The notes under the pieces were generated by a model. The model was not told the DNA's origin. It searched no databases and worked only from the letters and a program-made list of their open reading frames with translations. A program made the position numbers and the translations under genes. A stretch of 20,041 bases of DNA from a virus: positions 1 to 20,041 of IMG/VR virus record IMGVR_UViG_3300011013_000126; one strand, 5' to 3'. The stretch's first letter is position 1, and each line of letters starts with the position of its first letter. This document shows positions 414 through 10,198 of the stretch, one piece after another.

Positions 414-434
414 CTTAATAAAGGAGTGAAGAGT

Positions 435-1064
435 ATGAATATTAAAGAAGCATGGGCAATTGTTGGCGGTTTAAGTAAACCAAGCAAAATGCCCGGTTAC
501 GGTTACGGGTTAAGCGCCTTTGAATGCAGCACCGGATCGAAGTTGCGACTGATCAAGAATAGCACCTGCTCAATGTGTTACGCATTAAAGGGCCGCTATA
601 CTTTTAAAGGCGTGAAAGCAGCTCACGCAAACAGATTAGAATCAATTCAAGATCCACGCTGGGTGAATGCGATGGTTCTATTAATAAATAACTACGGGCG
701 CAAGGTTCCGTATTTCAGATGGCACGACTCAGGCGATCTACAAAGCCTGGACCATCTAAAGAAAATTGTAGCGGTTGCAATGGCAACGCCAAAGGTGAGA
801 CACTGGCTGCCAACACGTGAAGCTGGGATCCTGAAAGCCTTTTATAAAAAAGGTCATTCACTCCCGGGTAACCTGGCTGTGAGGGTATCCGCTACAATGC
901 TTGACGGGAAGCCCCACTCTAACGTAGGGCTAACGTCAACAGTTCACAAAGAATTAAAAGCAATTGGTTATAGCTGCCCGGCTAACAAGCAGGGAAACAG
1001 CTGTGGATCTTGCCGGGGTTGTTGGAATATCAATATACAGAATGTAAGTTATGCAGCACACTAA
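435..1064 (+). CDS. GP88-family phage protein
   Basis: A 209-residue protein of the phage GP88 family, whose biochemical role I do not know. Visible marks are an N-terminal Cys cluster (C31, C45, C48 in a TCSMCYA context), the segment FRWHDSGD at 94-101, WLPTRE at 124-129 and a C-terminal cluster C181, C190, C193, C196 spaced like a metal or iron-sulfur site. I chose ATG 435 because AAGGAG lies eight bases upstream. The frame stays open back to a TTG at 312, but that would read through the leader hairpin. The stop overlaps the next gene by 14 bases. Base composition stands out: I count 32 of 60 G+C at 481-540 and 34 of 60 at 781-840, against 13 of 60 at 10981-11040, which suggests acquisition from elsewhere. 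Family call is fairly sure; function is open. Confidence 0.82.
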   Translation: MNIKEAWAIVGGLSKPSKMPGYGYGLSAFECSTGSKLRLIKNSTCSMCYALKGRYTFKGVKAAHANRLESIQDPRWVNAMVLLINNYGRKVPYFRWHDSGDLQSLDHLKKIVAVAMATPKVRHWLPTREAGILKAFYKKGHSLPGNLAVRVSATMLDGKPHSNVGLTSTVHKELKAIGYSCPANKQGNSCGSCRGCWNINIQNVSYAAH

Positions 1065-1279: not shown

Positions 1280-1583
1280 ACCTTCCCCCAGAGTACACAG
1301 AGATGCCCCTCTGTTCGAGGGGGGTGACCATGATAAATGATTTTCCACCCAGTTTAAATCTGTTCATATGCCACGAAATTTGACCGGGCGATAGCCTGAC
1401 CCTGTTCCCTGAACTTACCTTTAACTCAACCCAAAATTCATGCGGTCTTTTTTCTGTATCTAAAAATAATCCATTTAAATCAGGCAGTCCTGTGGGTGTA
1501 ACAGCCTCAATTCTAGTAAAGGTAATTTTTGTAAACTTATTCTTTATTCTTCTCCAAAATTTCGTCTCCGGTTTTGTCGTCAT
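1173..1583 (-). CDS. VRR-NUC-like PD-(D/E)XK nuclease
   Basis: 136 residues. The order GLPD (D35), then WVELK (E53, K55), then SPGQ with Q68 and a following VTP strand is the pattern of VRR-NUC-type PD-(D/E)XK nucleases, often found in phages and thought to cut DNA junctions or flaps. The domain appears complete by about residue 100. The last 30 or so residues are translation of the heptamer array, with the TGA stop inside it, so the native C-terminus may once have been shorter. The start overlaps the terminase small subunit gene by 47 bases, with AAGG eight bases upstream. Location next to the terminase suggests a role in DNA processing before packaging, but recombination or repair is equally possible. 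Confidence 0.78.
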   Translation of the reverse strand: MTTKPETKFWRRIKNKFTKITFTRIEAVTPTGLPDLNGLFLDTEKRPHEFWVELKVSSGNRVRLSPGQISWHMNRFKLGGKSFIMVTPLEQRGISVYSGGRSLNLASQGLTLDPCAFFPEPCVFSNLESWFMNHVP

Positions 1584-2040
1584 CTAGTACCTTGTAACTC
1601 CCTTCAATAGATAATTTCTTGTCCATATCTGTTAATAATTTATCAACTTCCTCACGATTTAATTGGTCAATCGAGCCGTGCATAATTTCTTTTCTATCAA
1701 TATATAAACCTGCCACTTGACCTCTGGATTTCTCAGCCTGGACCGCTGCATTCCAGTTGCCCTTTTCTTCTGCGCCTTTACTTAGCTGGTCTAATCTTTT
1801 CAAATGCCTATGGAGATTTACTTCGTATTTCTTTTCTTCTTTGTTCCTTAATTCTCTTATGTACTCTGCAACATGAGGTTTTTTTCTTAACTCAGATGCA
1901 GTCTTAGTTGCTACTGATTCAGCATATCCTGCTTGGATCGCACATTCCCTAGCACTCATTTCATCCCCATGTTCAACAAACAATAAGCAAAATTTAATCT
2001 GTCTCGGAGTAAGTTTATCTCTTACTATGTCAATATTCAT
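1537..2040 (-). CDS. terS: Terminase small subunit
   Basis: 167 residues. The N-terminus, LTPRQIKFCLLFVEHG then SARECAIQAGYAE and a short helix ending in KPHVAEYI, is the helix-turn-helix region of Terminase_2-type small subunits, which bind the packaging site and hand DNA to the large subunit. The middle (about 73-110) is helical and charged, as expected for the oligomerisation part, and the tail is acidic. It is followed on the same strand by the nuclease gene, not by a large terminase subunit, which is absent from the window. No strong ribosome site precedes the ATG. It reads leftward out of the control region at 2041-2412. Confidence 0.85.
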   Translation of the reverse strand: MNIDIVRDKLTPRQIKFCLLFVEHGDEMSARECAIQAGYAESVATKTASELRKKPHVAEYIRELRNKEEKKYEVNLHRHLKRLDQLSKGAEEKGNWNAAVQAEKSRGQVAGLYIDRKEIMHGSIDQLNREEVDKLLTDMDKKLSIEGSYKVLDDDKTGDEILEKNKE

Positions 2041-2089: not shown

Positions 2090-2197
2090 TGCTATGGCAG
2101 TATCAACAGCCGTAGCACAGCCGTAGCACTAAAATGACCTTTAAGTCATTGTAATGTATAGTATTTTTTTTACTGCTATGGCGCTATGGCGCTATGG
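2090..2197. repeat. Iteron-like GCTATGGC / GCCGTAGC repeats
   Basis: TGCTATGGC occurs at 2090-2098 and 2174-2182, followed directly by GCTATGGC (2183-2190) and GCTATGG (2191-2197), a period of eight. In the opposite sense GCCGTAGCA occurs at 2109-2117 and 2120-2128, one helical turn (11 bases) apart. The inverted copies differ from the direct ones by one T/C change, so they can pair in RNA through a G-U. The cluster lies between divergent genes and may bind a protein (origin or operator) or fold as RNA. Confidence 0.7.
2133..2162 (+). promoter_or_regulatory. Promoter candidate with overlapping operator-like dyad
   Basis: ATGACC at 2134-2139 and TATAGT at 2157-2162 are 17 bases apart, four and five matches to the sigma70 boxes. 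The perfect inverted repeat AATGAC (2133-2138) / GTCATT (2145-2150) covers the -35 box, as a repressor site would. The predicted start is near 2169. Confidence 0.4.
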
Positions 2198-2350
2198 ATA
2201 GGTATTTGAGTTTTGTTAAAAAGAATTGGGGTAAAAAACACTATACACAGTATGTATTATGTGTATAGATGGTTTTGCCTCATCTAAAAGAGGCTATTCA
2301 CTCCCTTCCCTCACATAGTTTTCATTCTTCTGTGTGAGGGACATTTTTTT
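2169..2350 (+). ncRNA. Candidate structured small RNA ending in a rho-independent terminator
   Basis: No credible gene reads rightward here, yet the stretch ends in a clear intrinsic terminator. Downstream of the promoter candidate come, in order, three GCTATGG repeats, a 9-bp dyad (2241-2249 with 2260-2268), a 5-bp GCCTC/GAGGC hairpin (2277-2281 with 2290-2294) and the terminator hairpin. That is a transcript of about 180 bases that folds but lacks a ribosome site. An early-gene leader with attenuation is an alternative, but the next gene has its own promoter downstream of the terminator. Confidence 0.45.
2308..2350 (+). terminator. Rho-independent terminator
   Basis: CCCTCACATA (2308-2317) pairs with TGTGTGAGGG (2331-2340) over ten pairs, one of them G-U, with a 13-base loop, followed by ACA and seven T at 2344-2350. 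It works rightward only; no A run precedes it for the other direction. It insulates the early promoter at 2353 from transcription coming from the left. Confidence 0.8.
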
Positions 2351-2352
2351 AT

Positions 2353-2381
2353 TTGACATTTATATTTGTATGGGATAAATA
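2353..2381 (+). promoter_or_regulatory. Early promoter candidate
   Basis: A perfect TTGACA at 2353-2358, 17 bases, then TAAATA at 2376-2381. The same -10 sequence at the same distance recurs at 7117-7145, so TAAATAA may be the -10 form used by this phage. The predicted start near 2388 gives a leader of about 25 bases before the gene at 2413. Confidence 0.6.
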
Positions 2382-3207: not shown

Positions 3208-3433
3208 ATATACAATTCATTACGATGACTTATGGGTAAGTTTTATTCCCAAAACGGACAAAGCGAGATTCTGGATTCAAGATTATAGAGGCAAGGGTCA
3301 TGATTGGTATCGCTTTATGGCTAAATGTGTTGACTATGATGGAGGAATTACATTTCCTTACAACCGAGTAAATAAGTTTAGAACTTATCTTAAAGTAAAA
3401 TTAAGAAAAGACGATGGACCTCAAAAAAGATAA
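3188..3433 (+). CDS. Hypothetical protein (81 aa), TTG start
   Basis: Rich in aromatic residues (Trp and Tyr) and ending in a basic stretch. The frame has no ATG before residue 63, so TTG at 3188, with GGGGGA about nine bases upstream, is the best start. It overlaps the preceding membrane peptide by 20 bases and the following PAPS-reductase-like gene by 20 bases. Predicted as a compact beta-rich protein; no family recognised. Confidence 0.6.
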   Translation: MEPIENKYTIHYDDLWVSFIPKTDKARFWIQDYRGKGHDWYRFMAKCVDYDGGITFPYNRVNKFRTYLKVKLRKDDGPQKR

Positions 3434-4274
3434 ATACTTCGGTACATTACTACCACAACACGACAAGACACCTAAACTTGTGATCTTATCTTTAGGTGCA
3501 GGAGTTCAATCATCAACAATGGCAATGATGGCAGCAGAGGGACACATACGACCTATGCCAGATTGTGCAATTTTTGCCGACACAGGATACGAACCACCTG
3601 ATGTATATGAATATTTAAATTGGTTAGAGAAGCAATTACCTTTTCCAGTATACCGAGTAATGAAAGGAAACATCCGAGATGATATGGTCAGTTCCGTGGA
3701 CCATGGGACGAGATTCCCGACCGCTCCCTTTTATACCGTGAATGCAAAGACAGGGAAAAAAGGAATGCTCATGCGCCAATGTACAAATGATTATAAGATC
3801 CAACCAATTAGAAAAAAGATTCGAGAACTATTAGGCGTGGGATACTACAAACACGTTAAGAAAAATGTATGGGTAGAACAGTGGATAGGAATCTCAACAG
3901 ATGAGATAGCAAGAATGAAACCAGCAAGAGATAAATACATTATTAATCGTTGGCCCTTACTTGAATTAAACATTAACCGGAGACAATGCCAGGATTGGTT
4001 CGAGAAGCGAGGACATAAAAAACCGACGAAGTCAGCGTGTATCTGTTGTCCATTTCACGATGATGCACACTGGCAAGACATGAAAGATAATCGTCCAGAA
4101 GAATTTGCGGACGCTGTGGACTTCGATAAAAAGATTAGACACGGATCACGGAATGTAAAAGATAAATTATTTTTACATAGGTCAGCACAACCACTCGACC
4201 AGGTAAAGTTCAAACCAAAAAAAGAACAATACGATATGTTTGATAATGTATGCGAAGGGATGTGTGGTGTTTAA
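3414..4274 (+). CDS. PAPS-reductase-like / adenine nucleotide alpha-hydrolase family protein
   Basis: 286 residues. The PP-loop SLGAGVQSS at 26-34, ADTGYEP at 55-61 and RQCTNDYKIQPIRK at 121-134 mark the phage PAPS-reductase-like branch of the ATP-pyrophosphatase fold, which activates substrates by adenylation or handles sulfur. Extra Cys residues (C123, C209, C211, C212) and the C-terminal CEGMCGV (C280, C284) suggest an iron-sulfur or zinc site, unlike plain sulfate-assimilation reductases. The natural substrate of such phage proteins is not known; nucleic-acid modification or sulfur supply are the usual suggestions. The XF1762-like gene starts inside its last codons, so the two are made together. 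Confidence 0.82.
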   Translation: MDLKKDKYFGTLLPQHDKTPKLVILSLGAGVQSSTMAMMAAEGHIRPMPDCAIFADTGYEPPDVYEYLNWLEKQLPFPVYRVMKGNIRDDMVSSVDHGTRFPTAPFYTVNAKTGKKGMLMRQCTNDYKIQPIRKKIRELLGVGYYKHVKKNVWVEQWIGISTDEIARMKPARDKYIINRWPLLELNINRRQCQDWFEKRGHKKPTKSACICCPFHDDAHWQDMKDNRPEEFADAVDFDKKIRHGSRNVKDKLFLHRSAQPLDQVKFKPKKEQYDMFDNVCEGMCGV

Positions 4275-4749
4275 AACAATTCCTTTATCACTTAAAGCGG
4301 CAAACGATTTCGTTACATCACATCATAGACACAATAAGAAAACAGCGGGACATAAGTTCAGTATTGGCGCAACATTAGATGGCGAACTCATTGGTGTAGC
4401 GATATGCGGGAGGCCAGTAGCGAGAGCCTTGGATAATGGAACAACACTAGAAGTTCTGCGGGTATGTATTAAAGACCCTGCTCCAAGAAATGCTTGTTCT
4501 TATCTCTATGCGAGATGCCAAAGAATCTGGACAGCTATGGGGGGAGAAAAAATTATAACATACACATTGGAATCAGAACCAGGTTCAAGTTTAAAAGCAG
4601 TCAATTGGACTCATGCTGCAACAACAAAGAAAAGGTCCAAGAATAATTTATGGAATACAAGACGACCAGAACACAAGGGATATAAATCTGTGCGGGAGTC
4701 TCAACTAGCAGACGGTGTTATTAAGAATCGTTGGGAAAAACTAATCTAA
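4267..4749 (+). CDS. XF1762-like phage protein (GNAT-like)
   Basis: 160 residues from a GTG at 4267 with GAAGGGA seven bases upstream. TTG 4240 and ATG 4246 are in frame but have poorer ribosome sites and fall in the preceding gene. The N-terminus (LKAANDFVTSHHRH), the IGVAICGRPVAR strand-turn and LEVLRVC followed by NACSYLYARC match the XF1762 phage family, thought to resemble acetyltransferases. Function is not established. It overlaps the PAPS-reductase-like gene by eight bases, a pairing that suggests a joint task, and it runs tail to tail (nine-base overlap) into the minus-strand operon with no terminator between. Confidence 0.72.
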   Translation: MFKTIPLSLKAANDFVTSHHRHNKKTAGHKFSIGATLDGELIGVAICGRPVARALDNGTTLEVLRVCIKDPAPRNACSYLYARCQRIWTAMGGEKIITYTLESEPGSSLKAVNWTHAATTKKRSKNNLWNTRRPEHKGYKSVRESQLADGVIKNRWEKLI

Positions 4750-5372: not shown

Positions 5373-5457
5373 AATTTCCTCTAAAAATAAATCCTAAACA
5401 CGCTCCCCAAAAGAAAACAAATAAGATTATTAATGTATGCCATATGAAAAAGTTCAC
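5326..5457 (-). CDS. Tiny single-pass membrane protein (43 aa)
   Basis: GTG start inside a GTGA overlap with the preceding gene, with AAAGGAAG about five bases upstream. The hydrophobic span (residues 3-25, with WGACLGFIF at its end) is followed by a strongly basic tail, RGNYETRKKITKRKE, so the tail should face the cytoplasm. It is the second tiny membrane protein in the window. Role unknown. Confidence 0.62.
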   Translation of the reverse strand: MNFFIWHTLIILFVFFWGACLGFIFRGNYETRKKITKRKEATR

Positions 5458-5630
5458 GACACTTCCTTTAATTTACCTTTAACTGCAGGTTTTTGTTTCT
5501 TCCATGCCTCATCAATGACCATGGAAATGTACGATCCTATTGATCGATGTGTATTCTCAGCCATTAATTTGGCTTTGTGATAGGTCTCCATTTTTGTGGC
5601 TACCGATTTATATTTTGATGTATCCATCAT
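5454..5630 (-). CDS. Ribbon-helix-helix-like DNA-binding protein (58 aa)
   Basis: The order of a short strand (YKSVATKM), a helix (YHKAKLMAENT), RSIGSYI and a second helix (SMVIDEAWKKQ) follows the ribbon-helix-helix pattern of Arc/CopG-type regulators and antitoxins, with a Lys-rich tail. ATG 5630 overlaps the SNF2-like gene's stop as ATGA and lies behind AAGGAG; ATG 5627 is the next codon. The stop overlaps the following start as GTGA. It could be a repressor of this operon or a helper for the helicase. No toxin-like partner is recognised, so an antitoxin role is unsupported. Confidence 0.72.
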   Translation of the reverse strand: MMDTSKYKSVATKMETYHKAKLMAENTHRSIGSYISMVIDEAWKKQKPAVKGKLKEVS

Positions 5631-8635: not shown

Positions 8636-10198
8636 ATGAGTATAGAAAAATTTAAACAAATATTTTCAGGGTTGGAAAGAGCCTATGGGCAATACAATTC
8701 AGGAGATGTAAAGAATGGAAAGCAGGGCGGTAATGCATATATTAAAAAAGATATTGTTACAGATGCACTATGGAAAAATCATCTTGAGGGTGTGGAACCT
8801 AGTCTTGGTATCATCCCCATTAGAGATGATAGCACTTGTTCTTGGGGTTGTATTGATGTTGACACTTATCCTCTCGATCATTTAAAAATTGTAAAAAAAA
8901 TAAGAAGTTTAGAACTTCCTCTTATTGTATGTCGATCTAAAAGTGGTGGCGCTCATTTATTTTTATTTGTAGAAGATCCAGTTAGTGCTGAGGATTTAAG
9001 AAATAAGTTGACTCAATTAGCTGCCGTGTTAGGTTATGGTAATTGTGAAGTTTTTCCTAAGCAAATTAAAATTAATGCCGAGCGTGGCGACACTGGTAAC
9101 TTCCTTAATCTACCTTACTTTAATAGTGATGATGGTAATCGTTATGGTTTTTTGGACAATGGTAATGCTGCTACTTTGGACGAGTTTTATTCTCTCTATG
9201 ATAAGTACAAAATTAAATCCCAGGATATTAACAAAATCCAACCTAAACAAGTTGCTTTAAAATCAGATGAGTTAAGTGATGGTCCACCTTGTTTACAAAC
9301 ATTAATGGAACAAGGGGTTGGAGAAGGGGGGAGAGATAATACTTTATATCATTATGCAGTTTATGCAAAAAAGAAGTGGAAAGAGGGGTGGGAAGATAAA
9401 GTTTCTGACTTTAATGCTAATCATATCAATCCTCGATTAGATTATAAACAAGTTCAAAAGATAATTAATCAACATACTAAGCAAGAATACCAATACAAAT
9501 GTAAGGATCAACCTATGTGTGCATTCTGTGATTCAATTGAATGTCGTAAAAGAGAATATGGAATTGGATATGCATATGAACATCAGTTTTCTAATCTACA
9601 AAAATATCAATCCGATAATTCTGTTTGGTTTATTAGTGTGGATGGTAGGGTAGTAAGTTTATCAACACGTCAACTTTACAATCAATCTGAATTTATTTTA
9701 GCCTGCATTGATCAAATAAATATTGTTGTTAATTCCGTGAGCCGTGATCAGTGGATGAATAAAATTAAAGATTTAATCGAGAAAGTAGAGATAATTGAAA
9801 TGCCAGAAGATGTAAGGGTAGAGGGTCGCTTTGATCAATACCTGGAGTCTTTTGTTTTGGATCAAGGGGATGGCACATCTTTTGATGAGGTCATACGATT
9901 AGGTAAAACATTTACAGAAAAAGGTAAGACATATTTTCGTATGCATTATCTGGAAGAATTCTTAGATAAAAAGAGATTTAAAGGTTTTGATGCTACAAGA
10001 ATTGGAGCAAGAATAAGGCAACTTAATAACAAGGAAATTGGGGATTTAAAGGATGGAGAAACATATCCCGATCCTACTGTAGTGAGAAGAGTAAATGGAA
10101 AAAACTATCGCTTTTGGTGGATACATGAGTTAGAGAAACCAAAACAAGAAATTGAATTACCAAAGGAGAGGAGTGATGAAGATGAAATCCCATTCTAA
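8636..10198 (+). CDS. Archaeo-eukaryotic-type primase (AEP superfamily)
   Basis: 520 residues. The catalytic pattern of the AEP fold is visible: GCIDVDTY with D74 and D76, then CRSKSGGAHLFLF with H107, then EVFPKQ (E138) and GNFLNLPYF at 154-162, close to the primase domain of TOTE-type and phage primases. A helical segment at about 216-283 with GRDNTLYHYAVYAKK looks like a primase C-terminal domain. C289, C295, C298 and C303 form a probable zinc site. The C-terminal 200 residues are not recognised. The last residues, SDEDEIPF, copy the SSB tail. No DnaG- or T7-gp4-like primase is seen in the window, so this should prime replication. AAGG lies seven bases before the ATG; the next gene overlaps its end. 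Confidence 0.85.
   Translation: MSIEKFKQIFSGLERAYGQYNSGDVKNGKQGGNAYIKKDIVTDALWKNHLEGVEPSLGIIPIRDDSTCSWGCIDVDTYPLDHLKIVKKIRSLELPLIVCRSKSGGAHLFLFVEDPVSAEDLRNKLTQLAAVLGYGNCEVFPKQIKINAERGDTGNFLNLPYFNSDDGNRYGFLDNGNAATLDEFYSLYDKYKIKSQDINKIQPKQVALKSDELSDGPPCLQTLMEQGVGEGGRDNTLYHYAVYAKKKWKEGWEDKVSDFNANHINPRLDYKQVQKIINQHTKQEYQYKCKDQPMCAFCDSIECRKREYGIGYAYEHQFSNLQKYQSDNSVWFISVDGRVVSLSTRQLYNQSEFILACIDQINIVVNSVSRDQWMNKIKDLIEKVEIIEMPEDVRVEGRFDQYLESFVLDQGDGTSFDEVIRLGKTFTEKGKTYFRMHYLEEFLDKKRFKGFDATRIGARIRQLNNKEIGDLKDGETYPDPTVVRRVNGKNYRFWWIHELEKPKQEIELPKERSDEDEIPF

Follow-up and report, generated by a model that had tools for sequence, protein, structure and literature searches.

A predicted small RNA in a marine phage family with complementarity to the ribosome-binding sites of several phage genes

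Most of the well-studied small RNAs of phages belong to temperate phages that infect enteric bacteria, and where such RNAs act on phage genes they mostly have a single target. Dependence on a chaperone (Hfq or ProQ) is common, if not universal, among trans-acting antisense small RNAs, and in Alphaproteobacteria the AbcR, NfeR1 and cuckoo/CcsR-type small RNAs use a C/U-rich anti-Shine-Dalgarno (anti-SD) motif to pair with the ribosome-binding sites (RBSs) of many mRNAs. The c4 antisense RNA of phages P1 and P7 is phage-encoded, and pairs around the RBS of the phage ant mRNA to block its translation (PMC12197685), and the sar RNA of phage P22, a small phage RNA of 68/69 nt, also represses ant (PMC12197685). 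The lambda OOP RNA is short, has its own promoter, and represses a phage gene, being antisense to cII by overlap (PMC12197685). Two Hfq-linked, trans-acting small RNAs of phages have also been described, of which PreS (from lambda) regulates bacterial genes, and VpdS affects the levels of both host and phage mRNAs (PMC12197685). For phages related to the one considered here, promoters, intergenic elements and small or noncoding RNAs go unmentioned in a paper on the transcriptome of infection (PMC12753301), as do promoters, intergenic elements and noncoding RNA in a second paper on related pelagiphages (PMC9599517).

The locus that we describe resembles c4 in that a phage RNA is predicted to pair with phage mRNA at the RBS, yet no sequence relation between the two was seen, and c4 is described for ant mRNA, whereas the seed at this locus fits several genes that are unlinked. 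It similarly differs from sar, with its 68/69 nt and its ant target, in a predicted length of about 180 nt and a separate target set of several genes. Whereas OOP is cis-antisense to cII, the predicted targets here lie elsewhere in the genome, and the best of them (435-1064) is on the same strand as the RNA (2169-2350). The anti-SD small RNAs of Alphaproteobacteria are host-encoded and carry a different motif, in contrast to a phage RNA with predicted phage targets. PreS and VpdS are likewise phage-encoded and trans-acting, but at this locus only phage targets are indicated, phage genes being those that were compared.

The window, by which we mean the whole stretch of DNA analysed, is a virus record of 20,041 bases (IMGVR_UViG_3300011013_000126). 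Its DNA polymerase shares 49-56% identity with those of the Pelagibacter phages HTVC027P and HTVC023P, phage 023Pt_psg01 and phage DSL-LC04, and a SAR11 host is plausible for this pelagiphage-like virus. Relatives were collected by a search of IMG/VR with the terminase small subunit (terS), the best 80 loci encoding homologues 70-100% identical to it; further terS scans for more distant members left these best 80 matches essentially unchanged. Among them, 69 contigs had enough sequence upstream of terS, and the counts of layout given below refer to these. Two terS relatives, L214 and L215, sit on what may be misbinned phage contigs, one assigned to a SAR202 MAG and the other to a Bacteroidetes MAG. 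The small-RNA locus sits between terS and a block of rightward genes, and the features referred to in the text are as follows.

420-434, plus strand: RBS AAAGGAGTGAAGAGT of the GP88-family gene, the best supported target site, with the ATG at 435-437
435-1064, plus strand: GP88-family gene (PF17338, E = 1.4e-25), predicted target of the small RNA
1537-2040, minus strand: terS
2091-2127: upstream half of the repeat array, GCTATGG (+) at 2091-2097 and CCGTAGC (-) at 2110-2116 and 2121-2127
2134-2162, plus strand: candidate promoter P1 (-35 ATGACC, 17-bp spacer, -10 TATAGT; 9/12 matches)
2169-2350, plus strand: predicted small RNA of about 180 nt, its start placed from P1 and its end from the terminator
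2175-2197: downstream half of the array, three direct 8-bp repeats just past the predicted transcription start
2227-2294, plus strand: leader with lineage-specific hairpins (CUAUACA...UGUAUAG; GCCUC...GAGGC)
2295-2307, plus strand: seed UAUUCACUCCCUU, nearly invariant, preceding the terminator and complementary to GGAGUGAA(UA) RBSs
2308-2350, plus strand: intrinsic terminator (12-bp stem, 11-nt loop, 7 T), stem at about 2308-2341 and T run at 2344-2350
2353-2379, plus strand: predicted promoter P2 of the rightward genes (TTGACA ... ATGGGATAAA), its position conserved in all aligned relatives
2413 onwards: block of rightward genes
4240-4749: Mom-family protein (PF25680, E = 5e-8), directly after a PAPS-reductase-like gene; Mom is a DNA-modification family known from phage Mu
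5454-5630, minus strand: small Arc-like (ribbon-helix-helix) protein with a weak Pfam match (E = 0.047), strongly conserved in the family

A sequence-only reading of the window had proposed that this region holds a separate RNA, perhaps regulatory, with its own promoter and an intrinsic terminator, and the features that it named are present. Comparison among relatives lends support to such a small-RNA gene at 2134-2350, for 65 of the 69 contigs retain the full layout: in order, a repeat array around a -10 box, a leader, UUCACUCCCU, an intrinsic terminator and a second promoter. UUCACUCCCU stands at the same place, before a hairpin and a T run, in 65 of the 69 terS-linked contigs, with UCACUCCCUC replacing it in two more (L030 and L033) and neither sequence present in the other two (L052 and L054). 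The blocks that are conserved in the family alignment are the geometry of the array, the -10 block, the seed and the second promoter, and it is these signals that argue for an RNA of its own, about 180 nt long. The folding energy of 2169-2350 is -61.6 kcal/mol (z = -6.7), and conserved coding capacity is absent from it, as is usual for a small RNA. The region was said to lack a credible gene, and indeed no ORF of at least 50 aa occurs in 2041-2412; it was also said to be undescribed, in keeping with which an Rfam scan of the small RNA returned nothing at gathering thresholds, and only chance-level matches below them. We conclude that 2169-2350 probably encodes a separate RNA, which is probably regulatory.

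That the terminator works at the RNA level is strongly supported by its stem, the sequence of which varies and yet always pairs. When sequences were folded individually, 25 distinct hairpins were found in the family, all of them paired, with CG, UA, AU, GC and GU combinations at most positions, i.e. compensatory changes. The classic intrinsic terminator of the earlier reading is consequently borne out, having a strong hairpin, a covarying stem and a T run, such that the predicted RNA would end in a run of U as small RNAs with intrinsic terminators do. The hairpin at 2308-2341 was missed by a simple terminator scan on account of its loop of more than 8 nt, and an RNAalifold consensus on a MAFFT alignment contained just 4 pairs because gaps misalign the stem, the covariation being revealed by individual folding. 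Of the three successive dyads originally noted, the terminator stem is thus conserved, but the two middle stems (about 2227-2278 and 2277-2294) are found in the window and its close relatives and are absent from the rest of the family, and the sequence of the leader varies from clade to clade. A covariance-model search, which had been suggested as a check, did detect the element in the family, but the model, built on the 4-pair RNAalifold consensus, is nearly a sequence profile; its weak matches in other contigs were mostly the antisense of RBS motifs, and there was no convincing match in HTVC023P or HTVC027P. In one relative (L016) the region is mosaic, its upstream half resembling L013 and its downstream half L004, and recombination has therefore occurred inside the intergenic region.

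The promoter candidate of the earlier reading, P1, is a real but modest site, of which the -10 block TTAAGTcATTG..ATGTATA (about 2141-2162) is shared by most of the family while the -35 hexamer is not. It is not established by a scan of the single sequence, since promoter-like matches in the whole window (67 found, versus 76 expected from shuffles) are no commoner than in shuffled sequence. What had been described as an operator-like dyad does consist of repeats, but these form an array of six copies of 8-9 bp, with one (+) and two (-) copies preceding the -10 box and three (+) copies following it (starting at 2091 (+), 2110 (-), 2121 (-), 2175 (+), 2183 (+) and 2191 (+)). There is one array per genome, with a distance of 84-86 bp from half to half in the contigs measured. 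The repeat unit differs between phages (GCTATGG, GCTACA, GCAACA, AAGACA or TTAGACAC), and the copies within one phage largely change together, which means that the protein binding the array has to change along with them. The array looks like an immunity-type specificity switch, and its repeats are likely to be recognized by a phage-encoded DNA-binding protein, which would time the small RNA.

The immI region of P22 also holds Arc-type repressors, and the phage of the window likewise has an Arc-like protein. We considered this protein (5454-5630) as the array binder and rejected it: the strand residues KSVATK are identical in phages with quite different arrays, and the protein is a poor candidate because these presumed DNA-contacting residues are invariant while the arrays differ. 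It probably binds another conserved operator. Downstream, the proposal that the following genes have a promoter of their own is supported by the TTGACA at 2353, which lies after the terminator at a conserved position. P2 and the promoters of some left-arm genes (at about 3370-3400 in G007 and about 2756 in L214) have in common TTGAC plus TATGGGATA or GGGATATATCC, an element that is palindromic in some cases, and P2 and the left-arm promoters possibly answer to one common regulator.

From sequence comparison, the complementarity of the seed to several phage RBSs, the conservation of the two together and their joint absence in one lineage are demonstrated. Matches to the seed elsewhere in IMG/VR include several unrelated ones that are the antisense strand of RBSs, and these therefore suggested that the targets of the seed are RBSs. 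Since the genes whose RBSs it complements are unlinked, the seed has the character expected of a trans-acting antisense small RNA. Its mean unpaired probability in predicted folds is about 0.65, with low values in L017 and L010. Two other roles for the seed were rejected, namely a minus-strand reading with AAGGGAGTGAATA as the RBS of a leftward gene, for which a conserved start codon or ORF is absent downstream (a chance ATG/ORF follows the antisense of the seed in G003 only), and intramolecular pairing with AAGGGGGU after the array, which is possible in one clade only. A search for similar anti-RBS RNAs in unrelated phages with the same RBS yielded only L346, a member of the family, and two RBS-antisense-like sequences.

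The best supported target is the GP88-family gene, the start of which we place at ATG 435 instead of TTG 312 because the RBS and the homologues fit 435. GTGAA is present in 22 of 31 distinct GP88 RBSs versus 2 of 171 RBSs for 13 other gene families, although the families compared were partly picked after the motif had been seen, making this count and those of GTGA below descriptive and not a blind test. The regions from -45 to -21 of the GP88 genes have a mean identity of 28%, and so resemble one another about as little as unrelated DNA does. Some GP88 RBS variants retain pairing through wobble (GGGGTGAA) or an altered spacing to the start codon. The mean energy of the duplex between seed and GP88 RBS is -11.7 kcal/mol, and 2 of 1000 shuffled seeds gave a contrast in duplex energy between GP88 and ten other families at least as large as that of the true seed; for a 16S-tail-like sequence the contrast of GP88 with others is -3.6, versus -6.1 kcal/mol for the seed. 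GP88 is the best predicted target among the 100 ORFs of a 60-kb relative, and in the window the gene at 10176 beats it on duplex energy alone. The motif is absent at GP88 in some contigs that bear the seed (L069, L022, L040 and L074), of which the L074 contig has other matching RBSs. GP88 homologues in phages without the RNA (HTVC027P, psg01, HTVC033P and Caulobacter phage Seuss) have different RBSs, and GGAGTGAA is absent before the GP88 matches in six further records, not all of whose exact starts are resolved. A possible hairpin just 5' of the GP88 RBS (about 385-418 in the window, GGGGCTAGA...TCTAGCCCC) occurs also in L010, L009 and L063, and other phages carry unrelated sequences there.

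Beyond GP88, the pattern GGAGTGAA-N0-7-ATG is found 22 times across 8 of 9 family contigs (one occurrence being the antisense of the seed itself), versus once for a reversed-pattern control, and most of its sites are left of the small RNA, on the same strand. Four left-arm genes that are non-homologous have the RBS in common, GTGA being found in the RBS of MPNWT in 9/9 cases, MKQVK in 5/6, SH3-like in 13/24 and VDSGQL in 3/12, compared to 0/16 for the neighbouring MKIKLEK. Counting distinct genes, TGAA follows a GGAG SD in 56 of 487 in the family, versus 0 of 88 in the sequence analysed from HTVC023P, HTVC027P, psg01 and DSL-LC04. AAAGGAGTGAATATG is present in many unrelated viral contigs (117 loci, 5 with homologues of the window), and is therefore a workable RBS in its own right, the presence of which proves nothing alone; the argument for targets is made because the motif is restricted to certain genes of the family, and is absent both from relatives that lack the RNA and from a lineage that has lost the seed. 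In that lineage (L052 and L054; contig L333), both the seed and the T run after the hairpin are missing, the RBSs of GP88 (TATATGTAAAGC-ATG), VDSGQL (GGAGTAATAT-ATG) and SH3-like (GAGGTGTTATT-ATG) are without the motif, and the first rightward gene carries GGAGTGAATATG; being one lineage, it is counted as a single event of seed loss. The RBS (1583-1603, minus strand) of the gene after terS (1173-1583) contains AGGGAG, complementary to the CUCCCUU half of the seed, and its mean duplex energy with the seed is -10.7 kcal/mol; this gene is possibly a second kind of target.

The explanation that we consider likely is that of a phage-encoded, trans-acting anti-RBS small RNA, which would repress a small regulon of phage genes at a time set by the array. 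As the conserved signals suggest, transcription from P1 would give an RNA of about 180 nt ending at the intrinsic terminator, the UAUUCACUCCCUU of which would pair with the Shine-Dalgarno and start region AAAGGAGUGAAUAUG of several left-arm genes, UUCACUCC of the small RNA pairing with GGAGUGAA of the target. The targets would be the GP88-family gene in most phages and, where present, MPNWT, MKQVK, SH3-like and, less often, VDSGQL. Pairing would mask the SD, often extending to the start codon, and may thereby lower translation, so that the small RNA probably switches off translation of its target genes, while a phage protein on the repeats flanking the -10 box would time P1. We see roughly even chances for a broader proposal, under which non-homologous accessory genes have acquired or converged on one RBS, AAAGGAGUGAAUAUG, a single small RNA under a promoter flanked by a lineage-specific array silences them all, and the set of RBSs and the seed decay together upon loss.

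The terminator directly precedes the rightward genes, and an attenuator of early transcripts might be proposed instead, in which the leader from P1 stops at the terminator, conditional readthrough extends into the rightward block, and the first SD, which is partly complementary to CUCCCUU (AAGGGAG in L017 and L020), is controlled in cis by the C/U-rich stretch. We regard this as unlikely, given that a conserved, promoter-like P2 with TTGACA lies between terminator and gene and would make readthrough unnecessary, that conserved alternative pairing with the terminator was not found in the family alignment, and that the first gene matches mainly through ordinary SD complementarity, whereas the extended match is at left-arm genes. 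Terminators also commonly separate gene blocks, and left-arm genes on the plus strand face the region, such that the terminator might simply block rightward readthrough from the left arm, with no role of their own for P1 and the seed. The near-invariance of UUCACUCCCU beside a freely varying stem would then be left unexplained, as would the conserved -10 block and array and the matching RBSs, and we give such an insulator a lower probability still.

A decoy for host RNA-binding proteins had been suggested by the sequence-only reading, and more generally UUCACUCCCUU could mimic the 3' tail of 16S rRNA or bind a host RNA-binding protein; it does resemble the anti-SD tail UCACCUCC, and a C/U-rich tract precedes the terminator. 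However, the seed separates GP88 from other genes better than the 16S-like tail does, the target motif is absent where the seed is absent, and conservation in the RNA is highest not in a stem but in the C/U-rich stretch that complements RBSs of the phage's own genes, making a decoy highly improbable. We hold it equally improbable that the repeats and the AT-rich stretch function as a DNA element (a replication origin or partition-type site) with an incidental transcript: although the array is iteron-like, occurs once per genome at fixed spacing, and accompanies a divergent gene orientation, the covariation of the terminator and the match between seed and RBSs are signals at the level of RNA, and the array is compatible with a role in promoter control.

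If the anti-RBS explanation is true, a conserved small RNA in a marine phage family would control a set of phage genes via a common RBS. The target set would be readable from sequence alone, with a pair of seed and target that is directly testable, and the finding would give grounds for seeking RNA control in pelagiphage-like viruses.
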